This document shows, piece by piece, positions 39,223-56,231 of a stretch of 64,000 bases of DNA. The position numbers and the translations under genes are program-made. The notes under the pieces are model-generated. The model had not been told where the DNA came from. It did not search any database and was given only the letters and a program-made list of their open reading frames with translations. The stretch comes from Rhodomicrobium vannielii ATCC 17100 (GTDB taxonomy: Bacteria; Pseudomonadota; Alphaproteobacteria; Rhizobiales; Rhodomicrobiaceae). Position 1 is the first letter of the stretch, and every line of letters begins with the position of its first letter. Location of the stretch: the NCBI RefSeq assembly GCF_000166055.1, contig NC_014664.1, forward strand, positions 1-64,000. The letters are read 5' to 3'.

Positions 39223-39457
39223 CATCGGTCAGCACGTCTTAAGTCGCCCGCGCTTGGTCGCCTGTCAACCACCTGGCAGATAGAAAGTTCTTGATAGCGG
39301 CCACCGCGCCGCGCCTGCGCCTTTCGGGCCGCGCGCCGCAAGCTTCGCGCAGGTTGCGCGTCGTCGTCGCCAACAGGCTTGTCGCGGTAAGAGGGAAAGG
39401 GGGCTGACCGGGGCCGGCGCGGCGCTAACGCCCCTCTTTGTGGAATGGTTCAAATTT

Positions 39458-39484
39458 GCTTGACCAAAAACGGTATTGAGGTAC
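39458..39484. promoter_or_regulatory. Candidate operator before had, shared with badA promoter
   Basis: The 27 bases GCTT-G-ACC-A-AAAACGGTA-N5-GTAC, 37 bases before the had ATG, match 20 of 27 positions in 48955-48981 before badA, with the same spacing. The core ACC-N6-GGT is a dyad. Both promoters border the benzoyl-CoA gene block, so a shared regulator, probably the Rrf2 protein at 47947, is likely. Confidence 0.6.
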
Positions 39485-39520
39485 TCTAATGCGTAAATAA
39501 CGAAACGCGATGAGGGGCAA

Positions 39521-40588
39521 ATGCCGATAGCAGCTTACCGATGGGTGATGACGAGTGTCGGGGAACCGTTGATCCGGCAGTCGTTCGAACTTGGCGCACC
39601 TGCTGCGGGCGAGGTCACGGTTGAGATCGCCGGCTGCGGCGTCTGTCATACGGATCTCGGGTATTATTACGATGGTGTCCGCACGAACCAGCCCCTGCCT
39701 TTGACGCTTGGCCATGAGATCAGCGGACGCGTCGTCGCGGCTGGAACGGGTGCCGAACATTGGCTCGGCCGCGCCGTCATCATCCCCGCCGTCATTCCCT
39801 GCGGCACCTGCGATGCATGCAAGCGCGGCAAGGGCACGATCTGCGCGAAACAGGTCATGCCCGGCAACGATATCGAGGGCGGCTTCGCTTCCCACATCAC
39901 CGTGCCGTCGTTCGGGCTATGCGCTGTCAATGAGAACCGCCTCGAAGCGGCGGGGCTAAAACTCTCCGATGTTTCCGTTGTCGCGGACGCGGTCACGACG
40001 CCCTATCAGGCCGTCATTCAGGCGGGTGTCGGTCCCGGCACCCTCTGCATCGTGATCGGGGTTGGCGGCGTCGGCGGGCATTGCGCGCAGGTTGCCTCGG
40101 CCTTCGGCGGCACGGTCGTCGCCATCGACGTCGATGACGTAAAGCTGGCCGCGATCGCTGCCCATGGCGTCGCCAAGACATTCAATGCGCGCCGCGTCGA
40201 CCCGAAGGCGCTCAAGAAAGAGATAGCCGGGTTCGCAAAGGAAAACGGCCTTTCAACGCGGGAATGGGTGATCTTTGAATGCTCGGGGACGGCCGCTGGC
40301 CAGTCGACCGCATGGAGCCTCCTCGTTCATGGCGCAACGCTCGCCGTCGTCGGCTTCACCATGGATAAGGTCGAGGTCCGCCTCTCGAACCTGATGGCGT
40401 TTCATGCGCGCGCGCTCGGCAACTGGGGCTGCGCGACCGAGCTTTATCCGGGGGCGCTGGACCTCGTCCTCGACCGCAAGATCGAACTAGCCGCCTTCAT
40501 CGAGCGCCATCCGCTCGACAGCATCAACGAGATCTTCGCCATGGCGCATGAGCACAAGCTTACGCGGCGCGCCATTCTCGTCCCCTGA
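39521..40588 (+). CDS. had: 6-hydroxycyclohex-1-ene-1-carbonyl-CoA dehydrogenase
   Basis: Zinc-type alcohol dehydrogenase that oxidises the 6-hydroxy ring intermediate to 6-oxocyclohex-1-ene-1-carbonyl-CoA. The 355 residues have the catalytic zinc motif CGVCHTDLG and GHEISGRVV, the structural zinc site [15 protein letters not shown], and NAD loop [12 protein letters not shown]. The name rests on the overall match to Had plus its place before oah and dch. GAGGGG lies before the ATG. First gene of the plus-strand bcr operon; the control region is 39440-39520. Confidence 0.92.
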
Positions 40589-40626
40589 GCAGCAATGACA
40601 CCGAACGAAAAGAAGAGACTGAGGAA

Positions 40627-41763
40627 ATGACCCTGACTACAGCGTCGATAGCGAGAGCTACGGCTCCCGAAGCCCTGCACGATCACAATCTCGCGGAAAT
40701 CGTGGTACCCGGCGTTCGCTATGAAAAGCGGCCCGCACGCACGCCGGACGGCGAGATTGTTCCCGGCCTCTACAATGCGTGGATCACGCTCGACAATCCC
40801 GCGCAGTACAATTCCTACACCACGGAGATGGTCAAGGCGGTGATCCTTGCCTTCCGCGCGGCATCGAACGCGCGCGACGTGGTGGCGACTGTGTTTACCG
40901 GCGCGGGCGACAAGGCCTTCTGCACGGGCGGCAACACCAAGGAATACGCCGAGTATTACGCCGGAAATCCGCAGGAATACCGGCAATATATGCGCCTTTT
41001 CAACGACATGGTGTCCGCGATCCTCGGGTGCGACAAGCCTGTCGTCTGCCGCGTCAACGGCATGCGCATCGGCGGCGGCCAGGAAATCGGCATGGCCTGC
41101 GACTTCACCATCGCTCAGGATCTGGCGCGCTTCGGTCAGGCCGGACCGAAGCATGGATCGGCTCCGATTGGCGGCGCTACGGATTTCCTACCCGTCATGG
41201 TCGGTGCGGAAATGGCGATGGTATCCGGCTCGCTTTGCGAACCGTGGACGGCGCACAAGGCCTATCGGCTCGGCATGATCACGGACATCGTGCCCGCGCT
41301 CAAGGTCGATGGACGCTTCGTCGCGAACCCGCTCGTCATCACGGATCGCTATGTCGATGAATACGGCCGCATCGTCCACGGCGAACCAAAGACGGGCGCT
41401 GAACTGGCGGCCGGCAAGGACGTGCTGAAGAAGGGCACGGTCGATCTCTCGTTGCTCGACGCCAAGATCGAGGAGCTTTGCGGCAAGATCCTGCTGACGT
41501 TCCCGGATTGCTTCACGAAGACCATCGAGGAACTGCGCAAGCCCAAGATCAATGCCTGGAACGCGAACAAGGAGAACAGCCGCGCCTGGCTCGCGCTCAA
41601 CATGATGACGGAGGCGCGCGCCGGGTTCCGCGCCTTCAACGAAGGCACCAAGGATGACCGCGAAATCGATTTCATCGCGCTGCGGCAGGCGCTTGCGGCC
41701 GGTGCGCCGTGGACGCCGGAATTAACCGAGGCGCTTCTTCCGGCCGCGCGGGGGGCGAAATGA
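40627..41763 (+). CDS. oah: 6-oxocyclohex-1-ene-1-carbonyl-CoA hydrolase
   Basis: Crotonase-fold enzyme that adds two waters and cleaves the ring to 3-hydroxypimelyl-CoA. Length of 378 residues is much longer than a normal crotonase and typical of Oah. Hallmarks: GLYNAWITLDNPAQYNSYTTEMV, TGAGDKAFCTGGNTKEYAEYY, RVNGMRIGGGQEIGMACDF and QAGPKHGSAPIGGATDFLP. It overlaps dch by four bases (ATGA). This enzyme separates the Thauera-type pathway from the cyclohexane-type route of R. palustris, which uses BadI. Confidence 0.94.
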   Translation: MTLTTASIARATAPEALHDHNLAEIVVPGVRYEKRPARTPDGEIVPGLYNAWITLDNPAQYNSYTTEMVKAVILAFRAASNARDVVATVFTGAGDKAFCTGGNTKEYAEYYAGNPQEYRQYMRLFNDMVSAILGCDKPVVCRVNGMRIGGGQEIGMACDFTIAQDLARFGQAGPKHGSAPIGGATDFLPVMVGAEMAMVSGSLCEPWTAHKAYRLGMITDIVPALKVDGRFVANPLVITDRYVDEYGRIVHGEPKTGAELAAGKDVLKKGTVDLSLLDAKIEELCGKILLTFPDCFTKTIEELRKPKINAWNANKENSRAWLALNMMTEARAGFRAFNEGTKDDREIDFIALRQALAAGAPWTPELTEALLPAARGAK

Positions 41764-42530
41764 CCATCGAACCGCTGAAAGTATGGCACGACCGTGGGGG
41801 CGCGCTCCTCAGGTTGCGGCTCGCGCGTCCCAAGGCGAACATCGTCGATGCGCAGATGATCGCCGCGCTGACGGCAGCGCTCGACGCACATATGAACGAT
41901 CCGGCTATCCTCGCCGTTCTTATCGATCACGAGGGGCCGCATTTCAGCTTTGGCGCGAGCGTGCAGGAGCATCTGCCGGACCAGTGCGACGCAATGCTGA
42001 AGTCCTTCAACGCGCTCGTCATGCGGCTTGTCGCGGCTCCGGTGCCGGTCCTGGTGGCGGTGCGCGGCCAGTGCCTCGGCGGCGGCATGGAAGTCGCCAT
42101 CGCGGGCAGCCGGATCTTCGCCACTCCGGATGCAAAATTCGGTCAGCCCGAAATCATCCTCGGCGTGTTTGCGCCGCCGGCATCGTGCATCCTGCCGGAA
42201 AAGATCGCGCGCTCGGCGGCGGAGGACATTCTTCTGTCGGGGCGCTCGATTTCCGGCGAGCAGGCATTCGGGCTCGGCCTTGTTTCCGAGATCACGCCTG
42301 AACCGGAGGCGGCAGCGCTCTCCTATTTCGATCACGCGCTTGCGGCGCTTAGCCCGTCGTCGCTGCGCATCGCCGTGAAGGCGGCCCGCCTCGACATGGT
42401 CGAGCGCATCCGCACGAAGCTCTGCAACCTCGAACATCTCTATCTGGAAAAACTGATGTCCACGAAGGACGCAGTGGAAGGCCTGACCGCGTTCATCGAG
42501 AAACGCCCGGCCCAATGGGAGGCCCGCTGA
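41760..42530 (+). CDS. dch: Cyclohexa-1,5-diene-1-carbonyl-CoA hydratase
   Basis: Crotonase-family hydratase that adds water to the diene made by benzoyl-CoA reductase, giving 6-hydroxycyclohex-1-ene-1-carbonyl-CoA. The 256-residue product shows RLARPKANIVDAQMIAAL, FSFGASVQEHLP, VRGQCLGGGMEVA and FGQPEIILGVFAPPASCIL, the last one a feature of Dch proteins. ATG at 41760 overlaps oah stop; a longer frame from 41709 lies in oah. Ends two bases before bcrC. Confidence 0.92.
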   Translation: MTIEPLKVWHDRGGALLRLRLARPKANIVDAQMIAALTAALDAHMNDPAILAVLIDHEGPHFSFGASVQEHLPDQCDAMLKSFNALVMRLVAAPVPVLVAVRGQCLGGGMEVAIAGSRIFATPDAKFGQPEIILGVFAPPASCILPEKIARSAAEDILLSGRSISGEQAFGLGLVSEITPEPEAAALSYFDHALAALSPSSLRIAVKAARLDMVERIRTKLCNLEHLYLEKLMSTKDAVEGLTAFIEKRPAQWEAR

Positions 42531-42532
42531 TC

Positions 42533-43696
42533 ATGACGACCACAGCTGAAATTGTTTCTCGCTGCGAAGCCATCTTCGAGGATCTGGACTTTACCGCCGC
42601 GCGCGCCTGGAAGGACGCGGTCCCCGGTCGCAAAGTGGTCGGCTTCCTGCCGCTGTACGCGCCGCTCGAACTGATCCACGCGGCGGGTTGCCTGCCGCTC
42701 GGCCTGTTCGGCGGCGGCGACAAGCTGGAAGTCATCCACGGCGATGCCTTCTACCAGAGCTATATCTGCCGCATCCCGCGCTCGACCGTCGAACTCGGCA
42801 TGACGAAGCGCCTCGACTTCGTGGACGGCATGATCTTCCCGTTCGTCTGCGACGTGATCCGCAATCTGTCGGGCATGTGGAAGATCATGTTCCCGAACGT
42901 CTGGACCAAGTTCTTCGATACGCCGCAGAACTTCGATCCTGAAATCGGCGGCAGCTACTACGTGACCGAATTGCAGGAGATGCGCGACGGGCTGGAGACG
43001 CTCACGGGCCGGAAAATCAGCGACGACGATCTCAGGCGCTCCATTGCGCTCTACAACGAGAACCGCCGTCTCGTGCGCCAGCTCTACGCGTTCCGTGCGC
43101 GCCAGCCCTGGAAGGCGCCGACGTCGGAAGTCTATCTGCTGATGCGGGCCGGGCTGATGATCGACGTAGCGGAGCATAACGCGCTTCTGCTCGACTACAT
43201 GGCGGCGGCCGAGAAGGAAGATCGGCCGAAGCGCGACAACGTCCGCGTGGCGATCTACGGCTCCTTCTGCGAGCAGCCGCCGCTGAACCTCATCAAGTCC
43301 ATCGAGATGGCAGGCTGCTACGTGGTCGAGGACGACTATATCCTCGTCAATCGGTTCCTTACCGAAGACGTAGCGCTCGACATCGATCCACTCGAAGCGC
43401 TCGCCACCGCTTACATCGCTCATTCGGTCGAAACGTCGTGCAAATACGTCCCGCGCGAAGGCGAGAAGGGCAAGTTTCACGTCGATCAGATCCGCAAAGC
43501 GGGCGCGGAAGGCGTGATCTACGCGACGCCGAGCTTCTGCGACCCCGCCCTGCTCGACCGCCCGATGATCTGCAAGAAGCTCACCGAGGAGGGCATCCCG
43601 CACATCTCGTTCAAATACGCCGAGAATTCCGGGCAGATGCAGCCGGTTCGCGAGCAAGCCGGCACGTTCGCCGATTCCATCAAGCTTTGGAGCTGA
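42533..43696 (+). CDS. bcrC: Benzoyl-CoA reductase subunit C
   Basis: One of two subunits that bind benzoyl-CoA and [4Fe-4S] clusters in ATP-dependent class I benzoyl-CoA reductase (BadD in R. palustris). The 387 residues match the HgdB/BcrBC family: KVVGFLPLYAPLELIHAAGCLPLG split as conserved N-terminal core, then YQSYICRIPRST with a cluster cysteine, FPFVCDVIRN, and GSFCEQPPLNLIKSIE. ATG at 42533 follows the dch stop by two bases; start six codons upstream is not supported. Confidence 0.95.
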   Translation: MTTTAEIVSRCEAIFEDLDFTAARAWKDAVPGRKVVGFLPLYAPLELIHAAGCLPLGLFGGGDKLEVIHGDAFYQSYICRIPRSTVELGMTKRLDFVDGMIFPFVCDVIRNLSGMWKIMFPNVWTKFFDTPQNFDPEIGGSYYVTELQEMRDGLETLTGRKISDDDLRRSIALYNENRRLVRQLYAFRARQPWKAPTSEVYLLMRAGLMIDVAEHNALLLDYMAAAEKEDRPKRDNVRVAIYGSFCEQPPLNLIKSIEMAGCYVVEDDYILVNRFLTEDVALDIDPLEALATAYIAHSVETSCKYVPREGEKGKFHVDQIRKAGAEGVIYATPSFCDPALLDRPMICKKLTEEGIPHISFKYAENSGQMQPVREQAGTFADSIKLWS

Positions 43697-43699
43697 CAC

Positions 43700-44983
43700 A
43701 TGAGCGATATCGTCAAGGAACCGTCGATGCTCCTCCAGAAGGAGATGATCGCGCGCAACTATGAGGCCATTACCTCGAAGCATGAGACGGGCCGCAAGGT
43801 CTCGTCCACCTTCGTGCCGGGCAATCTTAATGAACTGCTGCTCTGCTTCGACATCGTGAACAATCTGCCCGAGATCAACGCGATCCAGAACGGCATGAGG
43901 AAGCTGTCGGGCAACTACATCATGGATGCCGAGAAGTCGGGCCATTCCGAAGACGTCTGCACCTATGTAAAGGCGGATATCGGCATGATGGGCGCGGGCA
44001 ACATCGCACCGAACGGCAAGCCCTTCCCGAAGCCGGACGTGCTGCTGCTCTCCTATACGGGCTGCTACACCTTCATGAAGTGGTTTGAGCTTCTGCGCGA
44101 GGAATACAAGTGCCCCACGCTGATGCTGCATGTGCCGTATGAGGGCGACGGGCATTCAACGAAGAACATGCGCGACTACATCGTCAAGCAACTGAAGGAA
44201 GTCATCATTCCGGGGCTTGAGCAGGTGTCGGGCATCAAGTTCGACATCGACCGCCTGCGCGAAGCACTGCGTAACTCGGCGAAGGCCGAAGACAACCTCG
44301 TCTGGGTGCTGGAATCCGGCAAGAACAAGCCGTCGCCCATCGACGCCTATTTCGGCGGCGTCTACTATATCGGGCCGATCTTCACCGCCTTTCGCGGCAC
44401 GCCCGACGCCATCGCCTATTACGACGCGTTGCGCACGGAAGTGCAGGCCCGCATCGATACGCGTCAGGGGCCGATCACTCCCGACGGATCGAACTTCAAC
44501 GATCAGCGCTATCGGCTCGTGGTCGAAGGACCGCCGAACTGGACCCACTTCCGCGAGTTCTGGAAGATGTTTTCGGACGAAGGCGCGGTCGTCGTTGCAT
44601 CGAGCTACACCAAGGTCGGCGGGATGTACGACCTGGGCTTTCGCCACAACGCGGATAACCCACTCGAAACACTCGCGGATTACTGCCTCGGCTGTTACAC
44701 GAACCGCAATCTCCCGACGCGCGTCGACATCCTCGCGAAGTATATCGAGGAATACGAGGCGGATGGACTGCTCATCAACTCGATCAAGAGCTGCAACAGT
44801 TTCTCCGCCGGTCAGCTCATGATGATGAACGAGGTCGAGCGGCGTACCGGCAAACCCGGCGCGTTCATCGAAACTGATCTGGTCGATCCCCGCTATTTCT
44901 CGGCGGCGAACGTGAAGAACCGTCTGGAAAGCTATTTCCAGATGATCGAACAGAAGCGTCTCGGCTCGGCCAAGGCAGCGTAA
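43700..44983 (+). CDS. bcrB: Benzoyl-CoA reductase subunit B
   Basis: Partner of BcrC in the substrate-binding half (BadE equivalent). 427 residues with [50 protein letters not shown] and [15 protein letters not shown], where the cysteines are candidate [4Fe-4S] ligands. Starts three bases after the bcrC stop and ends 14 bases before bcrA. Order C-B-A-D is as in Thauera aromatica. Confidence 0.95.
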
Positions 44984-44997
44984 GGAAGGACACCATC

Positions 44998-46290
44998 ATG
45001 CGTTGCTTCATCGGCATCGACCTCGGTTCCACCACCACGAAAGCCGTGGTCATGGACGAAAACCAGAATGTGCTTGGGCGCGGCATCACCAACTCGCGCT
45101 CCAATTACGACACCGCCGCTGCGGTCTCGAAGCAGGAGGCGCTCGTCGATACACGGCTGACACTGTTCCGCCGCGCTCTCGAAGCCGTGCCCGGAACGGC
45201 GGACACCGCAGAAGCAGTCCTCGCCGGTCTTGAGCGGAATTTCCGTCACATCCAGTTCGTCGAACAGCTCGAAGATCTGGAGCGCACCTGCATCGGCAAC
45301 GTGAAGGGTCCGCGCTTCGCCGGGCGCGAAAAGCCCGTCATTGAAGCGCTGGCGGAGACGTTCCGGCGGCTTCGCGAGCACTCCGCGACGCAGTTCGCGC
45401 CGGGCTTCCGCCGCAAGTCCGACTTTTTCCGCGACCTCGCGGGCGGCGATTTCATGCACAACGGCGAGGCGGTTTGCCGCGAGGCGGGACTCGCCTTCGA
45501 CCTCATTCTCAACATCTACGACAAGTCGATCATTGAGGTGGAGAACCGCCCACCCGCGGGCGACATCGAAGGCAAGTTCGTCCGCGCGCTGGAAATGGGA
45601 TCGCTCGATCAGTCGCTGATCGCCGCGCCGGTGAAGGCCGCCCTCTCCATCCCGCTTGAGGAAACCTACGTCGTCGGCACGGGTTACGGCCGCGTGCGCC
45701 TTCCTTTCCCGAAGGAGCACATCCGCTCGGAAATCCTCTGCCACGGGCTCGGCGCGCACATTATGTATCCGCGAACCCGCACCGTGCTCGACATCGGCGG
45801 ACAGGATACGAAGGGCATCCAGGTGGATCCTGCGGGTATCGTCGAGAACTTCCAGATGAACGACCGCTGTGCGGCGGGCTGCGGGCGCTACCTCGGCTAT
45901 ATCGCGGACGAGATGAACATGGGGCTGCAGGAACTCGGGCCGCTCGCCATGCAGTCGACGAAGCAGGTGCGCATCAACTCCACCTGCACCGTGTTCGCAG
46001 GCGCCGAGCTTCGCGACCGCCTCGCGCTTGGCGAGAAGCGCGAGGACATCCTCGCGGGGCTGCACCGGGCGATCATCCTGCGCGCCATGTCGATCCTGTC
46101 GCGAGCCGGTGGCGTGAAGGACCAGTTCACCTTCACCGGTGGCGTCGCGAAGAATGAGGCTGCGGTGCGCGAACTGCGGAAGCTCATCAAGGAAAACTAC
46201 GGCGACGTGCAGATCAACATCAATCCGGACTCCATCTACACCGGGGCGCTTGGCGGCGCGGCCTTTGCCGTGCGCGCGGTCCTGAACTGA
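44998..46290 (+). CDS. bcrA: Benzoyl-CoA reductase subunit A (ATPase)
   Basis: ASKHA-fold ATPase half of the reductase (BadF equivalent) that drives low-potential electrons into the ring at the cost of ATP. 430 residues with phosphate loop [16 protein letters not shown], second loop [14 protein letters not shown], the bridging cluster cysteine in [13 protein letters not shown], a further cysteine in [12 protein letters not shown] and [18 protein letters not shown] precedes the ATG. It is longer than subunit D because of an insert around residues 90-180, as in known BcrA/BadF. Confidence 0.95.
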
Positions 46291-46311
46291 GCCAGCCGAA
46301 AGGACGAGATC

Positions 46312-47154
46312 ATGAGTGCTATCATTACAGCGGGCGTGGACATTGGTTCGGGCTGCGTCAAGACGGTGCTGTTCGAGGTCGATGGTGAAAAGACGCGTTG
46401 GCTCGGCAAGGAGTACGCGCGGATAAGGAGCCGCGATCCCTTCGCGCTGGCGGCCGAGACTTACGACGCAATGCTTGCGAAGGCGGGCGTTTCCGCGGGC
46501 GACGTGGCCTATGTCGCCTCGACCGGCGACGCGGAAAACTTGCGCTTCGCGACGGGGCATTTCTATTCGATGACGACGCATGGGCGAGGCGCCGTGTACC
46601 TCAACCCGGAAGCCCGCTCGGTGCTCGACATCGGGGCTCTCAACGGCCGCGCTATCCGCATCGACGGCGGCGGAAAGGTGTTGAACTACAAGATGACGAG
46701 TCAGTGCGCGTCGGGCTCGGGTCAGTTTCTGGAGAACATCGCGCGCTATCTCGGCATCGCGCACGACGAGATTGGCATGCTGTCTCAGCAGGCCGACAAC
46801 CCCGAACGCGTATCCTCGATCTGCGCAGTGCTCGCGGAAACCGACGTCATCAACATGGTGTCGCGCGGAATTTCAGCGGCGAATATCCTCAAGGGCATTC
46901 ATGTGTCCATGGCGGTGAGGCTCGCCAAGCTGTTGAAATCCATCGGCTCGACGGATGGCGTGGTGCAGATGACGGGCGGTCTCGCGCTCGACACGGGGCT
47001 CGTTGCGGCGCTGAACGAGGCGCTCGTCAAGGAGAAGGTCGCGCTCGTGGCGGAAAGCCACCCGGACTCGATCTATGCCGGGGCCGTCGGCGGCGCGCTG
47101 TGGGGTGCATTCCGGCATCAGAAGCTGTCACGCCTCGAAGCGGTCGCGGCCTGA
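46312..47154 (+). CDS. bcrD: Benzoyl-CoA reductase subunit D (ATPase)
   Basis: Second ASKHA ATPase subunit (BadG equivalent), 280 residues. Motifs: GVDIGSGCVKTVLFEV, SVLDIGALNGRAIRID, SQCASGSGQFLENIARYLG with the cluster cysteine, SSICAVLAETDVINMVSRG, and MTGGLALDTGLV. An AAAGGA box precedes the start. Dimerises with BcrA through a shared [4Fe-4S] cluster in the family. In Thauera a ferredoxin gene follows; here a short-chain dehydrogenase follows instead. Confidence 0.94.
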   Translation: MSAIITAGVDIGSGCVKTVLFEVDGEKTRWLGKEYARIRSRDPFALAAETYDAMLAKAGVSAGDVAYVASTGDAENLRFATGHFYSMTTHGRGAVYLNPEARSVLDIGALNGRAIRIDGGGKVLNYKMTSQCASGSGQFLENIARYLGIAHDEIGMLSQQADNPERVSSICAVLAETDVINMVSRGISAANILKGIHVSMAVRLAKLLKSIGSTDGVVQMTGGLALDTGLVAALNEALVKEKVALVAESHPDSIYAGAVGGALWGAFRHQKLSRLEAVAA

Positions 47155-47160
47155 TCGATC

Positions 47161-47877
47161 ATGGCACAAAAGAAAAACGAGGCGTTCGTGGGGCGCACCG
47201 CCATCGTGACGGGCGGGTCGCGCGGCATCGGACGTGCCATTGCCGAAGGGTTGAAGGCGGGCGGCGCACGTGTCGTCGTCTTCGACCGCACCGAAGGCGA
47301 ACTGACGGGCATGGATTTCCGCGCCGTCGACATCGCGAACAGTGCGGCGGTTGCGGCGGCGGTCGGCTCGCTCGATCGCCCGGCGGACCTCCTCGTCAAC
47401 AATGCGGGTATCACGCGCGACCGCTCGCTGATGAAGATGAGCGACGAGGAGTGGCAAGGCGTGCTGGACGTGAACCTGACGGGCGCATTCATGATGCTCC
47501 GCGCGGTTGCTCCGGCGATGTGCGCGCAAGGGTTCGGGCGCATCGTGAACGTCGTTTCGATCAATGGCCTGCGCGGAAAGTTCGGGCAGGCCAATTATGC
47601 TGCCTCCAAGGCGGGCCTCGTCGGCCTGACGAAAACCGCAGCCCGCGAGCTTGGACCGAAGGGCGTGACCGTGAACGCCGTCGCGCCCGGCATGGTGCTG
47701 ACCGAAATGACGCTCGCGCTCGCCGAAGACGTGCGTCGCAAGGCGCTCGACGAAAGCGCGCTGAAAAAGCTGCCCGGCGTCGACGACATCGCGGACGCTG
47801 TGCTGTTTCTCCTGTCGGACCGCGCCAGCTTCATCACGGGGCAGGTGCTGAAGGTCGATGCAGGTCAGTATATCTGA
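47161..47877 (+). CDS. Short-chain dehydrogenase, probable 3-hydroxyacyl-CoA dehydrogenase of the pathway
   Basis: Classical SDR of 238 residues with cofactor loop TGGSRGIGRAIAEG, NNAGITRDRSLMKMSDEEW, catalytic Ser-Tyr-Lys in VVSINGLRGKFGQANYAASKAG, and C-terminal FITGQVLKVDAGQYI. It resembles FabG/PhaB and BadH of R. palustris. Position six bases after bcrD places it in the operon. The pathway product of Oah is 3-hydroxypimelyl-CoA, so oxidation of that compound to 3-oxopimelyl-CoA is the likely role, with the thiolase at 50640 as next step. This is inferred from context. Confidence 0.8.
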   Translation: MAQKKNEAFVGRTAIVTGGSRGIGRAIAEGLKAGGARVVVFDRTEGELTGMDFRAVDIANSAAVAAAVGSLDRPADLLVNNAGITRDRSLMKMSDEEWQGVLDVNLTGAFMMLRAVAPAMCAQGFGRIVNVVSINGLRGKFGQANYAASKAGLVGLTKTAARELGPKGVTVNAVAPGMVLTEMTLALAEDVRRKALDESALKKLPGVDDIADAVLFLLSDRASFITGQVLKVDAGQYI

Positions 47878-47884
47878 GCGCTAT

Positions 47885-47919
47885 AGCGTCGTGCCGCGCC
47901 CGATTTGCGACGCGACGCT
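47885..47919. terminator. Hairpin at the end of the bcr operon, ACAGCGTCG-family repeat
   Basis: AGCGTCG at 47885-47891 pairs with CGACGCT at 47913-47919, with further partial pairing of the GCGAC-type interior, then GTAAATTTCAT. It lies between the convergent SDR and Rrf2 genes and shares its core with the repeat at 3840-3885. Confidence 0.5.
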
Positions 47920-47946
47920 GTAAATTTCATCTTCACGCAGGCTGAT

Positions 47947-48396
47947 CTATTGCCCCGCCGCCTGGCGAATGACGGTTTCGATGGACGCCCCCTTGCTGCG
48001 ACGGGCGATCTTCAACATCGTGTCGATGGTGATCGAGGATAGCGTCGCGCGCGCGGTGTCCTCGATCTCGTTCATCACGAGGCGCAGGGCCTGACCCTCG
48101 CTCGTGTCGTCGCCCGCCTCGAAGCCGCCGGTCGTCGGTCCGATGGGCTCGAAAATGGCGATGATATCGAACAAGGTCAGCCGCTTAGGATTACCGACAA
48201 AGCGATAGCCGCCGCCGACGCCGCGCGAAGCATCGACGATCCCCTCACGGCCGAGCGTGCGCAAAACCTTCGCCAAGTGGTTGGGCGAGATGGCGTATTT
48301 CTCCGCGATGTCGACCGCCGACATTTGGCGATGAGGCTGCGCAGCGAGTTCCAGAACCGAAAAAATGGCGTGCCGTGTCGCGACCTGAAGCCTCAT
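47947..48396 (-). CDS. Rrf2-family regulator, BadM-like, without cysteines
   Basis: Winged-helix Rrf2 regulator of 149 residues: MRLQVATRHAIFSVLELAA, IAEKYAISPNHLAKVLRTL (recognition helix) and GGGYRFVGNPKRLTLFDI are typical. The translation contains no cysteine at all, so unlike IscR, NsrR or RirA it cannot hold an Fe-S cluster. In R. palustris the Rrf2 protein BadM represses the benzoyl-CoA reductase operon, and this gene sits in the matching context. It overlaps the upstream GNAT gene by four bases. Candidate operators are at 39458 and 48955. Confidence 0.88.
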   Translation of the reverse strand: MRLQVATRHAIFSVLELAAQPHRQMSAVDIAEKYAISPNHLAKVLRTLGREGIVDASRGVGGGYRFVGNPKRLTLFDIIAIFEPIGPTTGGFEAGDDTSEGQALRLVMNEIEDTARATLSSITIDTMLKIARRSKGASIETVIRQAAGQ

Positions 48397-48845
48397 TCGT
48401 CGAGATCCTTCTCAAGTTCCACAAACGGCCCGGCCATCATTCCCTGTGCGCGGAAGAACGACATGACAAGCTGCGCATCGCGAGCGACCATGGTGCGAAC
48501 CTTTGTTATGCCCGCGCGGCGAAAGGCGTCGCAGATTGCCTGGAAAAGGTCGGCGCCCATGCCCGACAGCCGCGTGTTCGGATCGACCGCGATTGCGAAG
48601 ACCCAGCCGCACGGCGGCGAGCCGAATTCCCAGGCGCGGATTTCTCCGGCGATGAAACCGAGCAGGATATCGTCCTTGACGGCGACGAGAAGGAAATGCT
48701 GCTTCCGCCGCGACTGACAATCCTTGAAGAGCGCTTCCCAATAGGCCGGTTTCGGCGTCGACGTAACGGCAGCATCGAGGCGAATGATAGGCTCGATATC
48801 GGCGGCACAGGCCGGGCGAATAATGAAATGCTGTTCTTCCGCCAT
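48393..48845 (-). CDS. GNAT-family N-acetyltransferase, BadL-like by context
   Basis: A 150-residue acetyltransferase with the GNAT fold. The acetyl-CoA loop is in the VDPNTRLSGMGADLFQ segment, and the N-terminal FIIRPACAADIEPIIRL is typical of the family. It overlaps the Rrf2 gene (ATGA), which makes a two-gene unit divergent from badA. R. palustris has a comparable acetyltransferase gene, badL, near badM. Substrate unknown; making or removing an inducer is one possibility, and protein acetylation is another. Confidence 0.82.
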   Translation of the reverse strand: MAEEQHFIIRPACAADIEPIIRLDAAVTSTPKPAYWEALFKDCQSRRKQHFLLVAVKDDILLGFIAGEIRAWEFGSPPCGWVFAIAVDPNTRLSGMGADLFQAICDAFRRAGITKVRTMVARDAQLVMSFFRAQGMMAGPFVELEKDLDE

Positions 48846-48954
48846 CGCTCCGTCTCCCTTCCGTCTCCCTCGGCAACCTTTGCCGTTTCGGACAACGTGT
48901 CATTATCGTACCGATTTGCGCTTGAATCGCGGACTTGACAAGAAGTTGATAATA

Positions 48955-48990
48955 GCTTTACCTAAAACGGTAAAACAGTACCGGTTTACC
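48955..48990. promoter_or_regulatory. Candidate operator in badA-GNAT divergent region
   Basis: TACC-N6-GGTA (48959-48972) runs on into GGTA-N6-TACC (48969-48982) and ends with GGTTTACC (48983-48990): a chain of alternating ACC/GGT half-sites. The first 27 bases align with 39458-39484 before had. A TTGACA at 48935-48940 could be the -35 box of a promoter. The site lies 81 bases before the badA start. Confidence 0.6.
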
Positions 48991-49070
48991 TTATACGCCC
49001 AAGCGGGACGAACCGGTCAGAAAAAAATGCCGGGATGAAAGCGCAAACGCGCCAGAGGAAGAGGTGGGAG

Positions 49071-50636
49071 ATGGGACTGTTGGTCGTGGCTGGGGAGGAG
49101 ATCGCGTTTCCGCCGGTTTTCAATGTCGCTTCGGAGTTCATCGACCGGCACCTTCGCGAGGGTAAGGCGACGAAGGTCGCCGTGCGGACGCGGAAGGGAG
49201 ACACCACCTATCGCGAGCTTTTCGAGGGTGTGAACCAGACCGCGAACTTCCTCGATGCGGCTCAAGTCGGCCGTGGCGAACGCGTCCTCATGATCGTGAA
49301 GGACAGCGTCGAGTTCTTCTTCATCTTCTGGGGGGCGATCAAGGCCGGTATTGTGCCTGTGCCCGTCAATACGCTTCTGCGCGCGAAGGATTACGCCTTC
49401 ATCATCGAAAATTCGGCATGTGCCGGGCTCATCTATTCGCCGGAATATGCGGGCGAAGTCGAGGCGGCGCTCGCAAGTATTCCGCACCGGCCGGGCCTTG
49501 TCCTGAAAATCGCGGACGAAGGCGACACGCTTGCCAACCGGATCGCCCCGTATTCCACCGAGTTCGCCGCCGTCGAGGCTTCGCCCACCGATGAATGCTT
49601 CTGGCTTTACTCGTCTGGCTCGACGGGCAATCCGAAGGGCGCGGTTCATCTTCAACGCGACATGGTCGTTTCGAGTGAATTCTACGGCGTGCGAACGCTC
49701 GGCGCAGGAGAGGACGATGTGTTCTTTTCGGCTGCGAAGCTGTTTTTCGCGTACGGGCTCGGCAACGGGATGACATTTCCGCTCTGGGTCGGCGGCACCG
49801 CCGTTCTGCTCGACGAGAAGCCGACGCCGTCGAACACCTTCGCTCTCATCGAGACGTTCCGCCCGACCCTGTTTTTTGGAGTGCCCACGCTTTACGCAGC
49901 CCAGCTTCAGGCGCTGGAAAATGTGACGCCTGACTTGTCGTCCCTGCGCATGTGCGTATCGGCGGGCGAGGCGCTACCAGCCGATATATTCCGCCGGTGG
50001 CGTGAGCACACGGGGACGCTCATCCTCGACGGCGTCGGCTCCACGGAAGCGCTTCACATCTTCATCTCGAACCGGGTCGGCCAGTTCAAACCCGGTTCTA
50101 GTGGCCTTGTCGTGGAGGGCTACGACGCCAAGGTCGTCGACGAGGCGGGCCGCACCGTGCCGACCGGCGAAACGGGGCGTCTCTTCATCAAGGGGCTGTC
50201 GATGGCGAAATACTATTGGCGAAACCCCGAGAAGACCGCCGAGACGATGCTCGGCGAATGGATCAACACCGGCGACACGTACTATCGCGACGAACACGGC
50301 TATTTCTTCTACTGCGGCCGCTCGGACGACATGCTGAAGGTCGGCGGCATCTGGTGTTCGCCCTTCGAGATCGAATCGACGCTTATCGAACACCCGACCG
50401 TTTTCGAGGTGGCGGTGGTCGGCCGCTCGGATGGGGAAGGGCTCGTCAAGCCCGAGGCCTGGATCGTGCTGAACGACGAGGCAAGACCGACCGAAGCGCT
50501 GGAAGACGAACTGCGCACCTTCTGCAAGACGAAACTCGCGCCCTATAAATTTCCCCGCCGTTTCCATTTCGTGGACAGTCTGCCCAAGACCGCGACCGGC
50601 AAGATCCAGCGCTACCGTTTGCGCGCGGAGGAATAG
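49071..50636 (+). CDS. badA: Benzoate-CoA ligase
   Basis: Adenylate-forming enzyme that activates benzoate to benzoyl-CoA with ATP and CoA, the entry step. The 521-residue protein carries the phosphate loop YSSGSTGNPKGAVH, LFFAYGLGNGMTFPLWVGG, DGVGSTEALHIFISN, NTGDTYYRDEHGYFFYCGRSDDMLKVGG and the catalytic lysine in PKTATGKIQRYRLR. These are wordings of the benzoate-CoA ligase family. ATG at 49071 has GGAAGAGG before it; a frame from 49035 is less likely. Divergent from GNAT-Rrf2; the thiolase follows three bases later. Confidence 0.93.
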   Translation: MGLLVVAGEEIAFPPVFNVASEFIDRHLREGKATKVAVRTRKGDTTYRELFEGVNQTANFLDAAQVGRGERVLMIVKDSVEFFFIFWGAIKAGIVPVPVNTLLRAKDYAFIIENSACAGLIYSPEYAGEVEAALASIPHRPGLVLKIADEGDTLANRIAPYSTEFAAVEASPTDECFWLYSSGSTGNPKGAVHLQRDMVVSSEFYGVRTLGAGEDDVFFSAAKLFFAYGLGNGMTFPLWVGGTAVLLDEKPTPSNTFALIETFRPTLFFGVPTLYAAQLQALENVTPDLSSLRMCVSAGEALPADIFRRWREHTGTLILDGVGSTEALHIFISNRVGQFKPGSSGLVVEGYDAKVVDEAGRTVPTGETGRLFIKGLSMAKYYWRNPEKTAETMLGEWINTGDTYYRDEHGYFFYCGRSDDMLKVGGIWCSPFEIESTLIEHPTVFEVAVVGRSDGEGLVKPEAWIVLNDEARPTEALEDELRTFCKTKLAPYKFPRRFHFVDSLPKTATGKIQRYRLRAEE

Positions 50637-51915: not shown

Positions 51916-52581
51916 CTATGCCGAAGCGGCCTCACGAAGCGCGCCGTTCTCAAGCCTCACCCATCGGTTCGCGACTTTCGCAAGAAAATCGCGGTCGTGG
52001 GAGACGATAACCATGGCCTGCGGCAGGCTGTTCAGAATGTCGACCATCCGTTCCTCGGTCTCGGTATCGAGGGCAGTTGTCGGCTCGTCGAGAAGCAGAA
52101 CCTCCGGCTCCATCGCGAGCACCGCCGCAAGCGCGACAAGCCGCTTCTGGCCGCCCGAAAGCTTGTAGGTGATCCGCTCATCGAACCCCTGAAGTCCAAG
52201 GCGATCGAGCGTGCGGCGCGTGATCTCGCGGGCTTCGGCGCGGGATTTACCGAGGTTGAGCGGGCCGAAAGCGACATCCTCCGCAACGGTCGGACAGAAA
52301 AGCTGGTCGTCGGCGTCCTGAAACAACAGGCCCGCGCGGCGGCGGACTTCCGGGAAATCACCCTCGCTGGTCCTGATCTTGCCGAACGCCTCTATCGTTC
52401 CCGCCGATGGCTTGGCGAGGCCGACCATCACATGCAGCAATGTCGTCTTGCCCGCGCCGTTCGGCCCCGTCACCGCGACGCGTTCGCCCGCATGCAACAC
52501 GAAATCGGCGCCGCGAAGCACGGGGCGTTCCCTGTCGTAGGCGAAGCTCACGCCGGAGAGACGCAGCAGTTCCGGGCTCAT
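51916..52581 (-). CDS. nikO: Nickel ECF transporter ATP-binding protein
   Basis: ABC ATPase that powers uptake through NikMQ. 221 residues with Walker A GPNGAGKTTLLH, Q-loop LLFQDADDQLFCPTV, signature LSGGQKRLVALAAVL, Walker B VLLLDEPTTALD, and switch histidine in IVSHDRDF. The Q-loop wording DADDQLF is typical of energy-coupling ATPases. ATG at 52581 is preferred to the one at 52608, which falls in an inverted repeat. It is separated from nikQ by 164 bases, unlike the tight rest of the operon. Confidence 0.92.
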   Translation of the reverse strand: MSPELLRLSGVSFAYDRERPVLRGADFVLHAGERVAVTGPNGAGKTTLLHVMVGLAKPSAGTIEAFGKIRTSEGDFPEVRRRAGLLFQDADDQLFCPTVAEDVAFGPLNLGKSRAEAREITRRTLDRLGLQGFDERITYKLSGGQKRLVALAAVLAMEPEVLLLDEPTTALDTETEERMVDILNSLPQAMVIVSHDRDFLAKVANRWVRLENGALREAASA

Positions 52582-52601
52582 AGGCGACCTACTAGCGCTC
52601 T

Positions 52602-52654
52602 GGCGCATACGTTTGATCCCTTTTGCCGCACGCTCTCATCCAAACGTATGCGCC
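52602..52654. repeat. Inverted repeat GGCGCATACGTTTG in the nik operon
   Basis: GGCGCATACGTTTG at 52602-52615 is the exact reverse complement of CAAACGTATGCGCC at 52641-52654. It lies in the nikQ-nikO gap next to a second, larger dyad, and could be a dispersed palindromic repeat. Confidence 0.7.
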
Positions 52655-52683
52655 TCAAGAGCACCAGCAACCAATTGATTCTA

Positions 52684-52754
52684 GTGCAGTTTCTATTTTA
52701 CATTTGATTATGGTGCCACCAGCTGGTGTGGATCAAATGTAAAATTCACTGCAC
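52684..52754. repeat. Long inverted repeat overlapping the nikQ 3' end
   Basis: GTGCAGT ... TTTTACATTTGAT (52684-52708) and ATCAAATGTAAAA ... ACTGCAC (52732-52754) pair over most of their length, with a central ACCAGCTGGT palindrome. The right arm includes the last codons and stop of nikQ. It may be an inserted miniature element or an RNA hairpin that tunes expression of nikO. Confidence 0.7.
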
Positions 52755-53558
52755 GAGTGCGAGGCCGAGGCACACGCCGAGAGACAGTCCGGCAAAGGCT
52801 CCATCGCGCAACGAAAGCGGGGCGTTTTCTGAAAGGGCGGGAAACGTCCCGTTGAAGCCACGGCACCGCATCGCGGCGACTATCCGCTCCGAGCGTTCGA
52901 TGCTCCGCACAAGCAGCATGCCAACGAGATAGCCGATGCTTCGCCACGTATGCAGGTCGCACCGCATGCGAAACCCGCGCGCTTTCATGGCGACGCGCAA
53001 CCGCCGGTACTCACGTCCGAGAACGTCGATGTAACGCAGGGTGAAGAGAAACAGGAGAACGAACTTGCTCGGCAGGCGCAGGCGGTTCATTGCGCGGCCG
53101 AGGAGCGCGGGCTCCATGGACGAAAGCAACGCGAGGATCATCAGCACGACGGCGTTCGCTTTCAGGAGGATCATTGCTCCGAGAAGCGCGCCTTCGCGGC
53201 TGGCTGGCAGTCCGGCGACCGAGAACAAAGGCTCTCCCGGCGTGGAGAATGGCAGCATCGCCAGCACCATCAGCATGAAACCGTCGAGCGCGGCCATGCG
53301 TCGGAGCGCGGTTCCGGGGCTCTGCCGGGCAGCCGCAACCGCGAGCGTCGCTATCCCGAGCGCGAGCGAAAGCGCGGTGAGGCTCTTCAGGCTCACGACG
53401 ACGAGGCAGAAGACCGCGCATACGAGGAGGCGAAGGCCCGGATCGACGGATTGGACGAAGTTCCGCTGATCGCCGCCCGACCGCGAACCGGCCAGAGCGA
53501 CAGCACCGTCGCAGCAGCCCTCGTTCACCGCGCCCGTCTGCTCTCCCGCGAGGCTCAT
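52746..53558 (-). CDS. nikQ: Nickel ECF transporter transmembrane protein
   Basis: The T component that couples NikO to the substrate-binding NikM. About 270 residues with several hydrophobic helices (LLVCAVFCLVVVSL, LTALSLALGIATLAVAAA, GAMILLKANAVVLMILALL, FVLLFLFTLRYIDVL) and the coupling helices marked by AMKARGF and AAMRCRGFNG (Arg-Gly motifs). ATG at 53558 overlaps the nikL stop by four bases. The last codons form part of an inverted repeat. Confidence 0.92.
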   Translation of the reverse strand: MSLAGEQTGAVNEGCCDGAVALAGSRSGGDQRNFVQSVDPGLRLLVCAVFCLVVVSLKSLTALSLALGIATLAVAAARQSPGTALRRMAALDGFMLMVLAMLPFSTPGEPLFSVAGLPASREGALLGAMILLKANAVVLMILALLSSMEPALLGRAMNRLRLPSKFVLLFLFTLRYIDVLGREYRRLRVAMKARGFRMRCDLHTWRSIGYLVGMLLVRSIERSERIVAAMRCRGFNGTFPALSENAPLSLRDGAFAGLSLGVCLGLALVQ

Positions 53559-54193
53559 TGCGCGTCCCTCGTCACATCGGAAGCGCCGCCGCGCACCCAC
53601 TTTCGCCGCTGAGCAAGACCGAAGGCAAGGCCGCCGAGGCCCAGGATGTAACCGAGACCGCCGAGGATGTCGTGCAACCGGATCTTTTCCTGATACGCGT
53701 CGATCTGTTCGCGCAACGGGCGGATCTGGCGGGCGATGCTTTGGTCGATGAAAGCCTTGAGATCCGTATCTTCGCCAGTTCGGGAAACGGCGGAGGCAGC
53801 CGCGACTGGTACGCCTGTCCGCTCGGCCGAAGGTTTCGCTGCGGCTGCGTCGCCGCCGCTGGCCAAGGTTTGCGGCAACTCGTCGGCCGCGACGGTGTAG
53901 CTCGCGACATGGCCATCTCCCCCATCAACGGTGATGACATGATCGACCCGGCGCGTGGCCTCGTAGCGGAAATTCCCCTCGTCGTCGGTCGTCGTCTTGC
54001 CGAGAACCGTTCCGTCCGGGCTTGCTACCGTGACGGACGACTGCCGCGCCCGGCCGCCCGTACCAAAATACGCGTAACCCTCGATCGCCGCGCCTGTTGC
54101 TGTGGCGAACACCTTGAGCTTGTGCGCCTCCGCTACGCCCCCGAACATCAGAAGCATGACGGCGACAAGGGCGGGAATCGAAACTCTCGTCAT
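53555..54193 (-). CDS. nikL: Nickel transporter accessory protein NikL
   Basis: Small accessory component of NikKLMQO systems. 212 residues: signal peptide (MTRVSIPALVAVMLLMFGGVAEA), then HKLKVFATATGAAIEGYAYFG starting with His after the cleavage site, a carboxypeptidase-regulatory-like beta domain (about 25-100), an Ala-rich linker, a short coiled coil (DQSIARQIRPLREQIDAYQEK) and one C-terminal transmembrane helix (ILGGLGYILGLGGLAFGLA) with positive tail. Lies between nikM and nikQ; the order and architecture support the name. Confidence 0.88.
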   Translation of the reverse strand: MTRVSIPALVAVMLLMFGGVAEAHKLKVFATATGAAIEGYAYFGTGGRARQSSVTVASPDGTVLGKTTTDDEGNFRYEATRRVDHVITVDGGDGHVASYTVAADELPQTLASGGDAAAAKPSAERTGVPVAAASAVSRTGEDTDLKAFIDQSIARQIRPLREQIDAYQEKIRLHDILGGLGYILGLGGLAFGLAQRRKWVRGGASDVTRDAQ

Positions 54194-54205
54194 TCGTGTG
54201 ATCCC

Positions 54206-54817
54206 CTATGCCTGAAAGCCGAGCAGCGACGGCTTGACCCTGGATAGAAGCCCGATCACCGCGACGCTGAAAGCCGCCTCGATCAGGGCGACCGGCACAT
54301 GCGCCACCACCACGAGATTGGCAGCGGCCAGAAACTCCCTGCCGGACAGGGCGAGAACCGCAGCCACAAGGATAGCAGTGATGAGAACGCCGAGACCGCC
54401 CGCCAGTCCGGCGCCCCAGAGCACGCGCTGGCGGTTCGCGCCATTTCCGGCGACCGCTTGAAAGAGGTAGCCGCACAGAACCGCTGGCACGGCCATGTTC
54501 ATGATGTTGACGCCGAGCACCACGAGGCCGCCGAACCCGAAGAGAACGGCCTGCAACAGCAAGGCGACCGCTATGGCCGGGAACGCCGCCCATCCGAGCA
54601 AAATGCCCGTCAGCCCGTTCAGGATGAGATGGACGGAAGTCGGGCCGACCGGGAAATGCACGAGCGAGGCGACGAAGAACACCGCCGCAAGGATGGCGAC
54701 CTCGGGAATGCGTTCCTCATCGAGGTGGCGAAGCGCGTAGCCGCAGCCCGCGAGGCTGACGGCCGCGCCCGCGATCAGAACCGGGGCGGACAGGACGCCA
54801 TCGGGAATATGAGCCAT
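54206..54817 (-). CDS. nikM: Nickel ECF transporter substrate-binding protein
   Basis: The S component that captures nickel. The start MAHIPDGVLSAPVL is the CbiM/NikM N-terminal signature in which the amino end and an early histidine coordinate the metal. Further conserved polar residues lie in VHFPVGPTSVHLILNGLTG (two His). About 203 residues, six or seven hydrophobic helices. I chose the ATG at 54817 because it places the histidine close to the N-terminus, as needed for metal binding; the ATG two codons before is also open. Directly before nikL. Confidence 0.93.
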   Translation of the reverse strand: MAHIPDGVLSAPVLIAGAAVSLAGCGYALRHLDEERIPEVAILAAVFFVASLVHFPVGPTSVHLILNGLTGILLGWAAFPAIAVALLLQAVLFGFGGLVVLGVNIMNMAVPAVLCGYLFQAVAGNGANRQRVLWGAGLAGGLGVLITAILVAAVLALSGREFLAAANLVVVAHVPVALIEAAFSVAVIGLLSRVKPSLLGFQA

Positions 54818-54871
54818 GGTCACGCTCCGGGTAAGAACGGGACGCAGTCGGTGTGCGTCCCGTCGCCAAAC

Positions 54872-55639
54872 TCACTTCATATCGACCGCTTTGACCCAGA
54901 TCGTGCCGCCGAGTTCGGCCTCGGCGGGCTTGCCGTCCGGCCCCTTTGTCTCGCCGTCGATAAGGGCGTTGAAGCCCCACCAGCCGGCTTTCGGAATGGC
55001 GTAGGCGAACACGCCGTTGTCGTCGGCCTTGACGACCTGGGTTACGAATGGATCGGAGGGGGCCTTCACCGAGCCGTCATTCGCCCATTCGATCTCGACG
55101 ACAGCGCCGGGCACCGGCTTGCCGTCCTTGCGGACCACGCCGCGGAAAAGGTTGCCCGTCCACACACCGTAGGGGCGGCTCAAGGGCTCGATTTCCACCG
55201 GGAAGCCGACGAGCTTGTCCCAGCCCTCGCCCGATCCGAAGTCGACGACAACCTTCGTGTAATGGATCAGGAAGTGCTTCTCGCCCTCGTCCCAATAGGG
55301 GGCGGGCTCAAGGAAAAACACATAGTCGCCGGGCTTCTTGATCTGATAGGTGGCTTCGAACGCTTTCTTGCCAGAAACCTCGACGGGCTTCAGCGAAGAT
55401 TTCAGGTCCACTTTCTCGCCGTCCGCGAGAACGCCGAATTGCTGCGGCTGTCCCATATCCATGTTGGGGCCGCCTTCCATGGGATGGGTGAACACGGCCT
55501 GCAGCTTGACCTTGCGATCGCCCTCATCGGGAACGATGTCGGCGGACGGCAGAAGCTCCTGAAAATGCGCATGCGCAGCGGCCGAAAAGAGCAGAAGCGC
55601 GGCAACCGAAGTTGCGGCGAGACCCGCAGGAAAACGCAT
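54872..55639 (-). CDS. nikK: Periplasmic nickel transport component NikK (DUF4198)
   Basis: Secreted 255-residue protein of the DUF4198 family. Signal peptide MRFPAGLAATSVAALLLFSA with cleavage after AHA, then HFQELLPSADIV. Conserved downstream parts are FTHPMEGGPNMDMG, GDYVFFLEPAPYWDE and GVWTGNLFRGVV. ATG 55639 is preferred because GAGGGGGA is seven bases before it and because it gives a clean signal peptide; a start at 55669 would not. First gene of nikKMLQO; thought to aid nickel capture in the periplasm. Confidence 0.9.
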   Translation of the reverse strand: MRFPAGLAATSVAALLLFSAAAHAHFQELLPSADIVPDEGDRKVKLQAVFTHPMEGGPNMDMGQPQQFGVLADGEKVDLKSSLKPVEVSGKKAFEATYQIKKPGDYVFFLEPAPYWDEGEKHFLIHYTKVVVDFGSGEGWDKLVGFPVEIEPLSRPYGVWTGNLFRGVVRKDGKPVPGAVVEIEWANDGSVKAPSDPFVTQVVKADDNGVFAYAIPKAGWWGFNALIDGETKGPDGKPAEAELGGTIWVKAVDMK

Positions 55640-55651
55640 GAAGTCCCCCTC

Positions 55652-55678
55652 GTATGAGTTATGAAGCATTTATCATTG
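55652..55678. promoter_or_regulatory. Candidate NikR site before nikK
   Basis: GTATGA (55652-55657), 15 bases, TCATTG (55673-55678). This resembles the known NikR operator GTATGA-N16-TCATAC, with spacing shorter by one and two changes in the right half. It lies just before the nikK start in the divergent nikK-nikR region, where such a site would be expected. Confidence 0.4.
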
Positions 55679-55805: not shown

Positions 55806-56231
55806 ATGGAACGAGTGACGATCTCTCTTGATGAGGATCTGCTCGGGCATTTCGACAGATATCTCGACAAGAAGGGCTATGCCAGCCGGTCGGAGGCGAT
55901 CCGGGATCTTCTGCGCGACAAGCTTGAGCAGGAGAAGCTCTCCGAAGACAAAGCGGAAAACGCCATCGCCTGTCTTTCCTACGTGTACAATCACGAACAG
56001 CGTGAATTATCGCGCCGGCTGGCCCGGACGCAGCACGCCCATCATCATCTCGTGCTTTCGACGCTCCACGTTCATCTCGATTATGAGAATTGCCTTGAGG
56101 TCGCCTTGCTCAAGGGAAACACGCACGATGTCCGCAAGCTTGCGGAGGCCACCATCGCGGAGACCGGGGTGCGGCACGGCAATCTGCACATCGTCCCGGA
56201 CGACATGCCCAAACGCCATCACCACGACTAA
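55806..56231 (+). CDS. nikR: Nickel-responsive regulator NikR
   Basis: Ribbon-helix-helix repressor of nickel uptake. 141 residues: N-terminal RHH domain (ERVTISLDEDLLGHFD and GYASRSEAIRDLLRDKL) and an ACT-like metal domain with the four nickel ligands visible as His77, His88, His90 and Cys96 (QHAHHHLVLSTLHVHLD, YENC), matching His76, His87, His89, Cys95 of the E. coli protein. AGGAGG-type site before the ATG. Divergent from nikKMLQO, which it should control. Confidence 0.96.
   Translation: MERVTISLDEDLLGHFDRYLDKKGYASRSEAIRDLLRDKLEQEKLSEDKAENAIACLSYVYNHEQRELSRRLARTQHAHHHLVLSTLHVHLDYENCLEVALLKGNTHDVRKLAEATIAETGVRHGNLHIVPDDMPKRHHHD

Follow-up and report, generated by a model that had tools for sequence, protein, structure and literature searches.

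The best-described relative of the system considered here is the BadM-BadL pair of Rhodopseudomonas palustris, in which the repressor BadM controls badDEFGAB and is loosened from the badC-badD interval by acetamidobenzoates made by BadL; the badL-badM genes are reported to lie beside the benzoyl-coenzyme A (CoA) reductase genes in this organism, and similar pairs to occur in Magnetospirillum magneticum and Geobacter metallireducens (PMC6191541). The present analysis concerns the first 64,000 nucleotides, forward strand, of contig NC_014664.1 of Rhodomicrobium vannielii ATCC 17100 (assembly GCF_000166055.1; hereafter the window), which carry an alike arrangement of an Rrf2 repressor and an adjoining GNAT acetyltransferase next to benzoyl-CoA reductase genes. 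In this window an original prediction, made from the DNA letters, had pointed to a 27-base element shared by the promoters of had and badA. The shared element is very probably the left arm and centre of a longer, palindromic operator, through which a BadM orthologue would repress had, badA, badL and a distant gene, gcdH.

By Pfam and by its sequence relatives in the PDB, the window protein belongs to the same family as IscR, NsrR and CymR, and the operators of Rrf2 regulators such as these are palindromes. The iron-sulphur (Fe-S) sensors among them (IscR, NsrR, RirA) have conserved cluster-binding cysteines. In contrast with IscR and NsrR, the window protein contains no cysteine in its 149 residues, so it holds no Fe-S cluster of their kind, which argues against a role in Fe-S sensing and would suit a small-molecule ligand. 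Two further sets of regulators, BzdR/BoxR and BamVW/BgeR, are unrelated to BadM. They control the same benzoyl-CoA pathway in Azoarcus and Geobacter, respectively (PMC4424350, PMC6678401).

A GTAC-centred palindrome in the window

What is conserved is a palindrome of 20 bp, GYAWW-N3-GTAC-N3-WWTRC, with GTAC at its centre and weaker A/T bases on its flanks. Its pattern, GYAWWNNNGTACNNNWWTRC, was fixed from the had and badA promoters of the window, of two congeners (L007, and L008 from R. udaipurense) and of Blastochloris sulfoviridis (L045). Three copies are present in the window:

39473..39492, + strand: predicted BadM operator of the had-oah-dch-bcrCBAD-sdr operon, GTATTGAGGTACTCTAATGC; exact match to the pattern, centre 38 bp before the had ATG, palindrome kept in L007, L008 and L045
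48970..48989, + strand: predicted BadM operator of badA, GTAAAACAGTACCGGTTTAC; exact match, the 22 bp 48969-48990 being identical in L007
48900..48919, - strand: predicted BadM operator of badLM, GCAAATCGGTACGATAATGA; one mismatch, lying 70 bp from that of badA, with one-mismatch counterparts in L007, L008 and Blastochloris L045

At had, the palindrome reads GTATTAAGGTACCATAATAC in L007 and GCATTATGGTACGCTAATGC in Blastochloris. The whole 64-kb window, searched with up to two mismatches, holds no match besides those at had, badA and badL.

Conservation in relatives

Once the pattern had been fixed, a BadM alignment was used to scan named genomes for relatives carrying badM, and the 80 best of the 398 confirmed loci were taken (1,245,077 bases; the derivation loci L060 and L065 are among them). 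Exact palindromes number 55 in these loci; seven controls, six of them with a swapped centre and one reversed, have 0-3 each. Within the 400 bp upstream of badL there are 31 exact, 40 one-mismatch and 15 two-mismatch matches, and each control gives 0 exact ones; at two mismatches the controls centred on CTAG and GATC reach 38-39, presumably the same sites read with the wrong centre. At least 150 bp upstream of badL are included in 78 of the 80 loci. Once the set had been thinned to below 85% BadM identity, a palindrome with at most one mismatch preceded badL in 37 of the 47 remaining representatives, compared with 9 of 441 control slices, and each of four altered spacers gave none (0/47).

The palindrome stands before leading genes and not inside operons. 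This was counted over 94 of 97 loci (the derivation loci L060, L065 and L045 set aside), with protein matches starting within residue 30, preset identity thresholds, at least 150 bp upstream and at most one mismatch; as the loci are akin, the counts are not independent events. It precedes leading had (14/14), bcrC (5/5), oah (1/1), sdr (11/14), badL (63/78) and badA (17/29), but neither of two leading thiolase genes nor the one leading bcrD, and none of 238 operon-internal genes (80 of them badM).

By their record titles, the loci with a palindrome before badL include Alphaproteobacteria, Betaproteobacteria and Acidobacteria, and the badM loci from the latter two groups contradict the statement in PMC10803450 that BadM occurs only in Alphaproteobacteria. 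Exact or one-mismatch sites also lie before boxC (L079) and, in L033, before a 2-oxoacid:acceptor oxidoreductase alpha gene that diverges from had, and a further site (L212) precedes a gene whose best family, just under the cut-off, is the 4-hydroxybenzoyl-CoA reductase gamma subunit. Others, each identified from one tested example, precede genes for a hemerythrin-domain protein (L098), a thioesterase of the FlK type (L206) and, divergent from badL, a periplasmic binding protein (L090).

Two further arrangements were observed. A GNAT-like gene additional to badL, with 25-31% identity to it, diverges from sdr with the palindrome between them at L062:11212, L063:8836, L064:7342, L069:8562, L070:11215 and L198:10793. 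At L079:9371-9398, L124:1467-1494 and L080:9404-9431 an overlapping second match starts 8 bp on, suggestive of loading by more than one dimer.

The badL-badM pair and its co-occurrence with the site

The regulator and its partner are encoded between the had operon and badA:

47947..48396, - strand: badM, Rrf2-family regulator, 149 aa, no cysteine; PF02082 at 84.9 bits (E 6.9e-24), TIGR00738 over cut-off, 51-54% identity to Rhodopseudomonas BadM
48393..48845, - strand: badL, GNAT acetyltransferase (PF00583), overlapping badM by 4 bp

Sequence and gene order identify the Rrf2 protein as orthologous to the repressor BadM, and its neighbour as the partner BadL. The comparison with Rhodopseudomonas combines the above identity with badL-badM order in four genomes; the scan of 371 Blastochloris-family genomes that served solely to find Rhodopseudomonas gave 77 matches at 1e-15, some of them weak and probably other Rrf2 proteins. 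The BadM of R. udaipurense JA643 is a 99% match, badL stands directly upstream of badM in all 80 relatives fetched, and the window protein scores far under the seven equivalog cut-offs listed.

Across 397 genomes of the order, BadM was called (E up to 1e-20) in 20, namely in 17 of the 21 bcrB-positive genomes and in 3 of the other 376. The palindrome co-occurs with it: at least one exact site is found in 16 of the 20 BadM genomes vs 44 of the 377 without BadM (Fisher p 3e-11), and at least three, as counted from the listing, in 9 of 20 vs 0 of 377. The original prediction had named a common regulator as the simplest explanation, with the Rrf2 protein encoded between the two promoters as the best candidate, and this gains support from the orthology with BadM, the adjoining badL and the way in which the element tracks badLM across phyla.

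The published BadM-bound interval

In each of three Rhodopseudomonas genomes, the sole match with zero mismatches stands before badD, when the centre of the pattern is relaxed to RTAC, a change made after the site had been seen. The predicted BadM site of R. palustris, GCATTCCAATACTAGATTAC, thus lies in the badC-badD interval that BadM is reported to bind; in genome G554 it occupies, by eye count, positions of roughly -94 to -75 relative to the probable ATG of badD and so falls within the probe, which runs from -191 to +21 (PMC6191541). The stretch taken from a fourth genome (L195) excludes the badD promoter. Directly upstream of the Rhodopseudomonas badD palindrome there is an FNR-like box, TTGATccgcATCAA, an arrangement fitting activation by AadR and blocking by BadM, and the same pair of box and palindrome recurs before an alcohol dehydrogenase gene (L190:8270). 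The two organisms would differ in what the repressor controls: the predicted targets in the window are had-oah-dch-bcr-sdr, badA and badLM, with gcdH elsewhere in the genome, whereas in R. palustris the site is at badD and possibly at the alcohol dehydrogenase gene, with none near badLM.

A distant site before a probable gcdH gene

In the complete genome of R. vannielii, GYAWWNNNGTACNNNWWTRC has three exact matches, at 39473 (had), 48970 (badA) and 2026250, and the reversed control has 0. The third has its centre 29 bp upstream of an acyl-CoA dehydrogenase gene, 2 Mb from the locus, whose product finds no NCBIfam model over cut-off and has as its best PDB match 4w9u, an acyl-CoA dehydrogenase (632 bits), followed by glutaryl-CoA dehydrogenases (1sir, 621.5 bits). 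Glutaryl-CoA dehydrogenase acts in the lower part of anaerobic benzoate breakdown, and the gene (gcdH) probably encodes this enzyme. Its orthologues in L201 and L202 (the two congeners), Blastochloris (84% identical) and a distant genome (G055/L207; 73%) are likewise preceded by an exact site; in Blastochloris, gcdH is divergent from had and its own exact site lies 103 bp from the had site. The had and badA promoters had been regarded as the only two that would serve the degradative genes, a view corrected by this distant exact copy and by the one-mismatch copy at badL.

One-mismatch sites in the genome also number three, at 48900 (badL), 2095682 and 3364681. The latter two were treated as chance: 2095682, before malate synthase, is kept in R. 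udaipurense and absent in G004, and the frame tested at 3364681 has no Pfam match.

Proposed regulation and its alternatives

We infer binding by the window BadM, repression and the inducer in Rhodomicrobium from these comparisons, and the following mechanism is proposed. A BadM dimer, the product of the badLM pair between the promoters, would sit on the copies at had (the bcr operon), badA, badL and gcdH; as these appear to lie in or just past the presumed core promoter, the geometry of which is tentative, its occupancy would block transcription. When aromatic acids are present, BadL would make an acetylated aminobenzoate, as is known for R. palustris, and BadM would release the DNA, so that anaerobic benzoate breakdown would be switched on in its upper and its lower part at once.

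Several observations weigh against this proposal. Ten of the 47 representatives have no site before badL, and 12 of the 29 leading badA genes have none within one mismatch; the badL copy in the window itself carries one mismatch, and the R. palustris site has ATAC at its centre. The four Rhodopseudomonas badM loci (L163-L166) have no site within two mismatches in about 1.5 kb on each side, which indicates that autoregulation is not universal. With up to two mismatches the genome gives 98 palindrome matches vs 139 for the reversed control, and in five relatives one mismatch yields palindrome and control matches at about the same frequency; because loose matches are no commoner than the control, only exact or conserved sites are informative. 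Four BadM genomes have no exact site, namely G031, G205 and G212, all without bcrB, and G254, in which a one-mismatch site precedes had. Conversely, a site is present in three of the four bcrB-positive genomes in which BadM was not detected: before bcrC in G187 (exact), before had in G068 (one mismatch) and, not located, in G063 (exact). Since all four are drafts (completeness 93%, 86% and 83%, respectively, and 88% for the fourth, G005), BadM may be missing from these assemblies, or another protein may use the site. In G005, the bcr cluster has no palindrome within two mismatches.

That genome, of the same genus, is also peculiar in another respect: the proteins of its bcr cluster (L009) are just 61-78% identical to those of the window, and no BadM was detected, which makes a replacement of the cluster possible.

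A second regulator travelling with badLM may also own the site. Along these lines, it is conceivable, and in our estimate unlikely, that the palindrome belongs to another benzoate regulator travelling with the bcr cluster, for example MarR-type BadR or FNR-type AadR, both of which are benzoate regulators in R. palustris (PMC6191541, PMC4424350). The sites in genomes without detected BadM would suit such a regulator, as would the FNR-like box just before the R. palustris palindrome and an open reading frame beside the Blastochloris badA site that was recognised by eye as MarR-like. The box, however, lies beside the palindrome and not inside it, and the window promoters show no FNR/AadR box of the form TTGAT-N4-ATCAA within two mismatches (39226-39530 and 48846-49075; one three-mismatch string at 39291), while the palindrome itself keeps its place before badL in all three bacterial groups, the genes around badLM in the 80 loci being annotated in part.

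Less probable still is the version in which the functional element bound by the Rrf2 protein is the 27-mer itself, with ACC-N6-GGT as its core. The two copies, at 39458-39484 and 48955-48981, are indeed identical at 20 of 27 positions without a gap; the degenerate 27-mer matches these had and badA copies only in 4,014,469 bases of genome (reversed control 0), the badA copy extends to TACC-N6-GGTA-N6-TACC-GGTTTACC as described, and ACC-N6-GGT is retained in the L007 had promoter. Yet the Blastochloris had promoter and the L007 badA promoter have lost this dyad while keeping the GTAC palindrome, the GTAC-centred 22 bp of the L007 promoter being unchanged. Upstream of badL in the 47 representatives, the 27-mer is found in none, and TTKACC-N6-GGTAWW and the loose TACC-N6-GGTA (exact) in one each. 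The ACC-N6-GGT core was dropped as not conserved, and so was TTTACC-N6-GGTAAA as an operator, having a single exact genome copy, at badA, that is not kept in L007. Judged by its bases, the 27-mer is the left arm and centre of the larger 20-bp palindrome, plus TTGACC in the had copy.

A chance likeness of the two promoters is contradicted by all the comparative results and can practically be discarded. Dinucleotide shuffles of the two intergenic regions score at least 20/27 in 3 of 1000 one-strand trials and in 7 of 500 when both strands are compared, the best real window in this comparison scoring 21. The 27-base match by itself is moderately unlikely and suggestive, not decisive; the shared element is established by the comparison with relatives, which also shifts its borders.

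Relation to previous knowledge

The regulator is known, and the pairing of badL with badM in other proteobacteria has already been published (PMC6191541). In the literature covered, the BadM target is one promoter in one species, and a search by title and start of abstract found neither a BadM operator sequence nor a multi-operon, multi-phylum BadM regulon; Peres and Harwood 2006 and Hirakawa 2015, the likeliest to map the site, lie outside that coverage. On balance we lean, with modest conviction, towards regarding badLM as a self-contained control cassette, made of an inducer-making enzyme and the repressor that reads its product, which would share a single operator code across Alphaproteobacteria, Betaproteobacteria and Acidobacteria. 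It would be coupled to a far wider aromatic gene set than the single operon of R. palustris, with roles in ring reduction, CoA ligation and glutaryl-CoA oxidation, together with genes for 2-oxoacid oxidoreductase, enzymes of the box pathway, 4-hydroxybenzoyl-CoA reductase, thioesterases of the FlK type, hemerythrin-like proteins and proteins of uptake. If this is true, the operator code lets the BadM regulon be predicted from sequence, a short specific operator before benzoate genes across phyla making it readable from genomes. The palindrome also ties the lower pathway, through gcdH 2 Mb away, to ring reduction, and it supplies exact bases for mutation, with sister species as ready controls.

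Presumed target genes and promoters

The presumed target genes of the window and the possible -35 elements before them are as follows:

39521..47877, + strand: had-oah-dch-bcrC-bcrB-bcrA-bcrD-sdr, presumed target operon; TIGR03201, TIGR03200, TIGR03189, TIGR02263, TIGR02260, TIGR02259 and TIGR02261 over cut-off, SDR by Pfam, operon inferred from spacing
49071..50636, + strand: badA, benzoate-CoA ligase family, presumed target; TIGR02262 at 604.7 bits, over cut-off; start codon picked by eye, 49035 being possible
39460..39465, + strand: TTGACC, possible had -35 element in the left part of the 27-mer (tentative)
48935..48940, + strand: TTGACA, possible badA -35 element (tentative)

Within the had copy, the GCTTGACC segment probably serves as a -35 element. 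By eye count, TTGAC starts 11-15 nt before the palindrome at 14 of the 19 had-side sites compared, and TTGACA stands about 30 nt before it in 10 of 13 badA promoters, that of the window included. A strict sigma-70 consensus scan reported no promoter in the had or badA region, so these assignments are tentative and rest on conservation. Terminator-like matches at 48968-48983 were set aside, as they fall within the palindrome itself.

In the divergent badL-badA interval, the two operators are 70 bp apart in the window and 72-85 bp apart in L062, L063, L064 and L069, and DNA looping between the pair is possible. Downstream of badA, on the + strand, lies a thiolase gene, beyond which open reading frames resemble, by eye recognition only, parts of a nickel/cobalt uptake transporter (51916-55669, - strand) and a NikR-type regulator (55806-56231, + strand).

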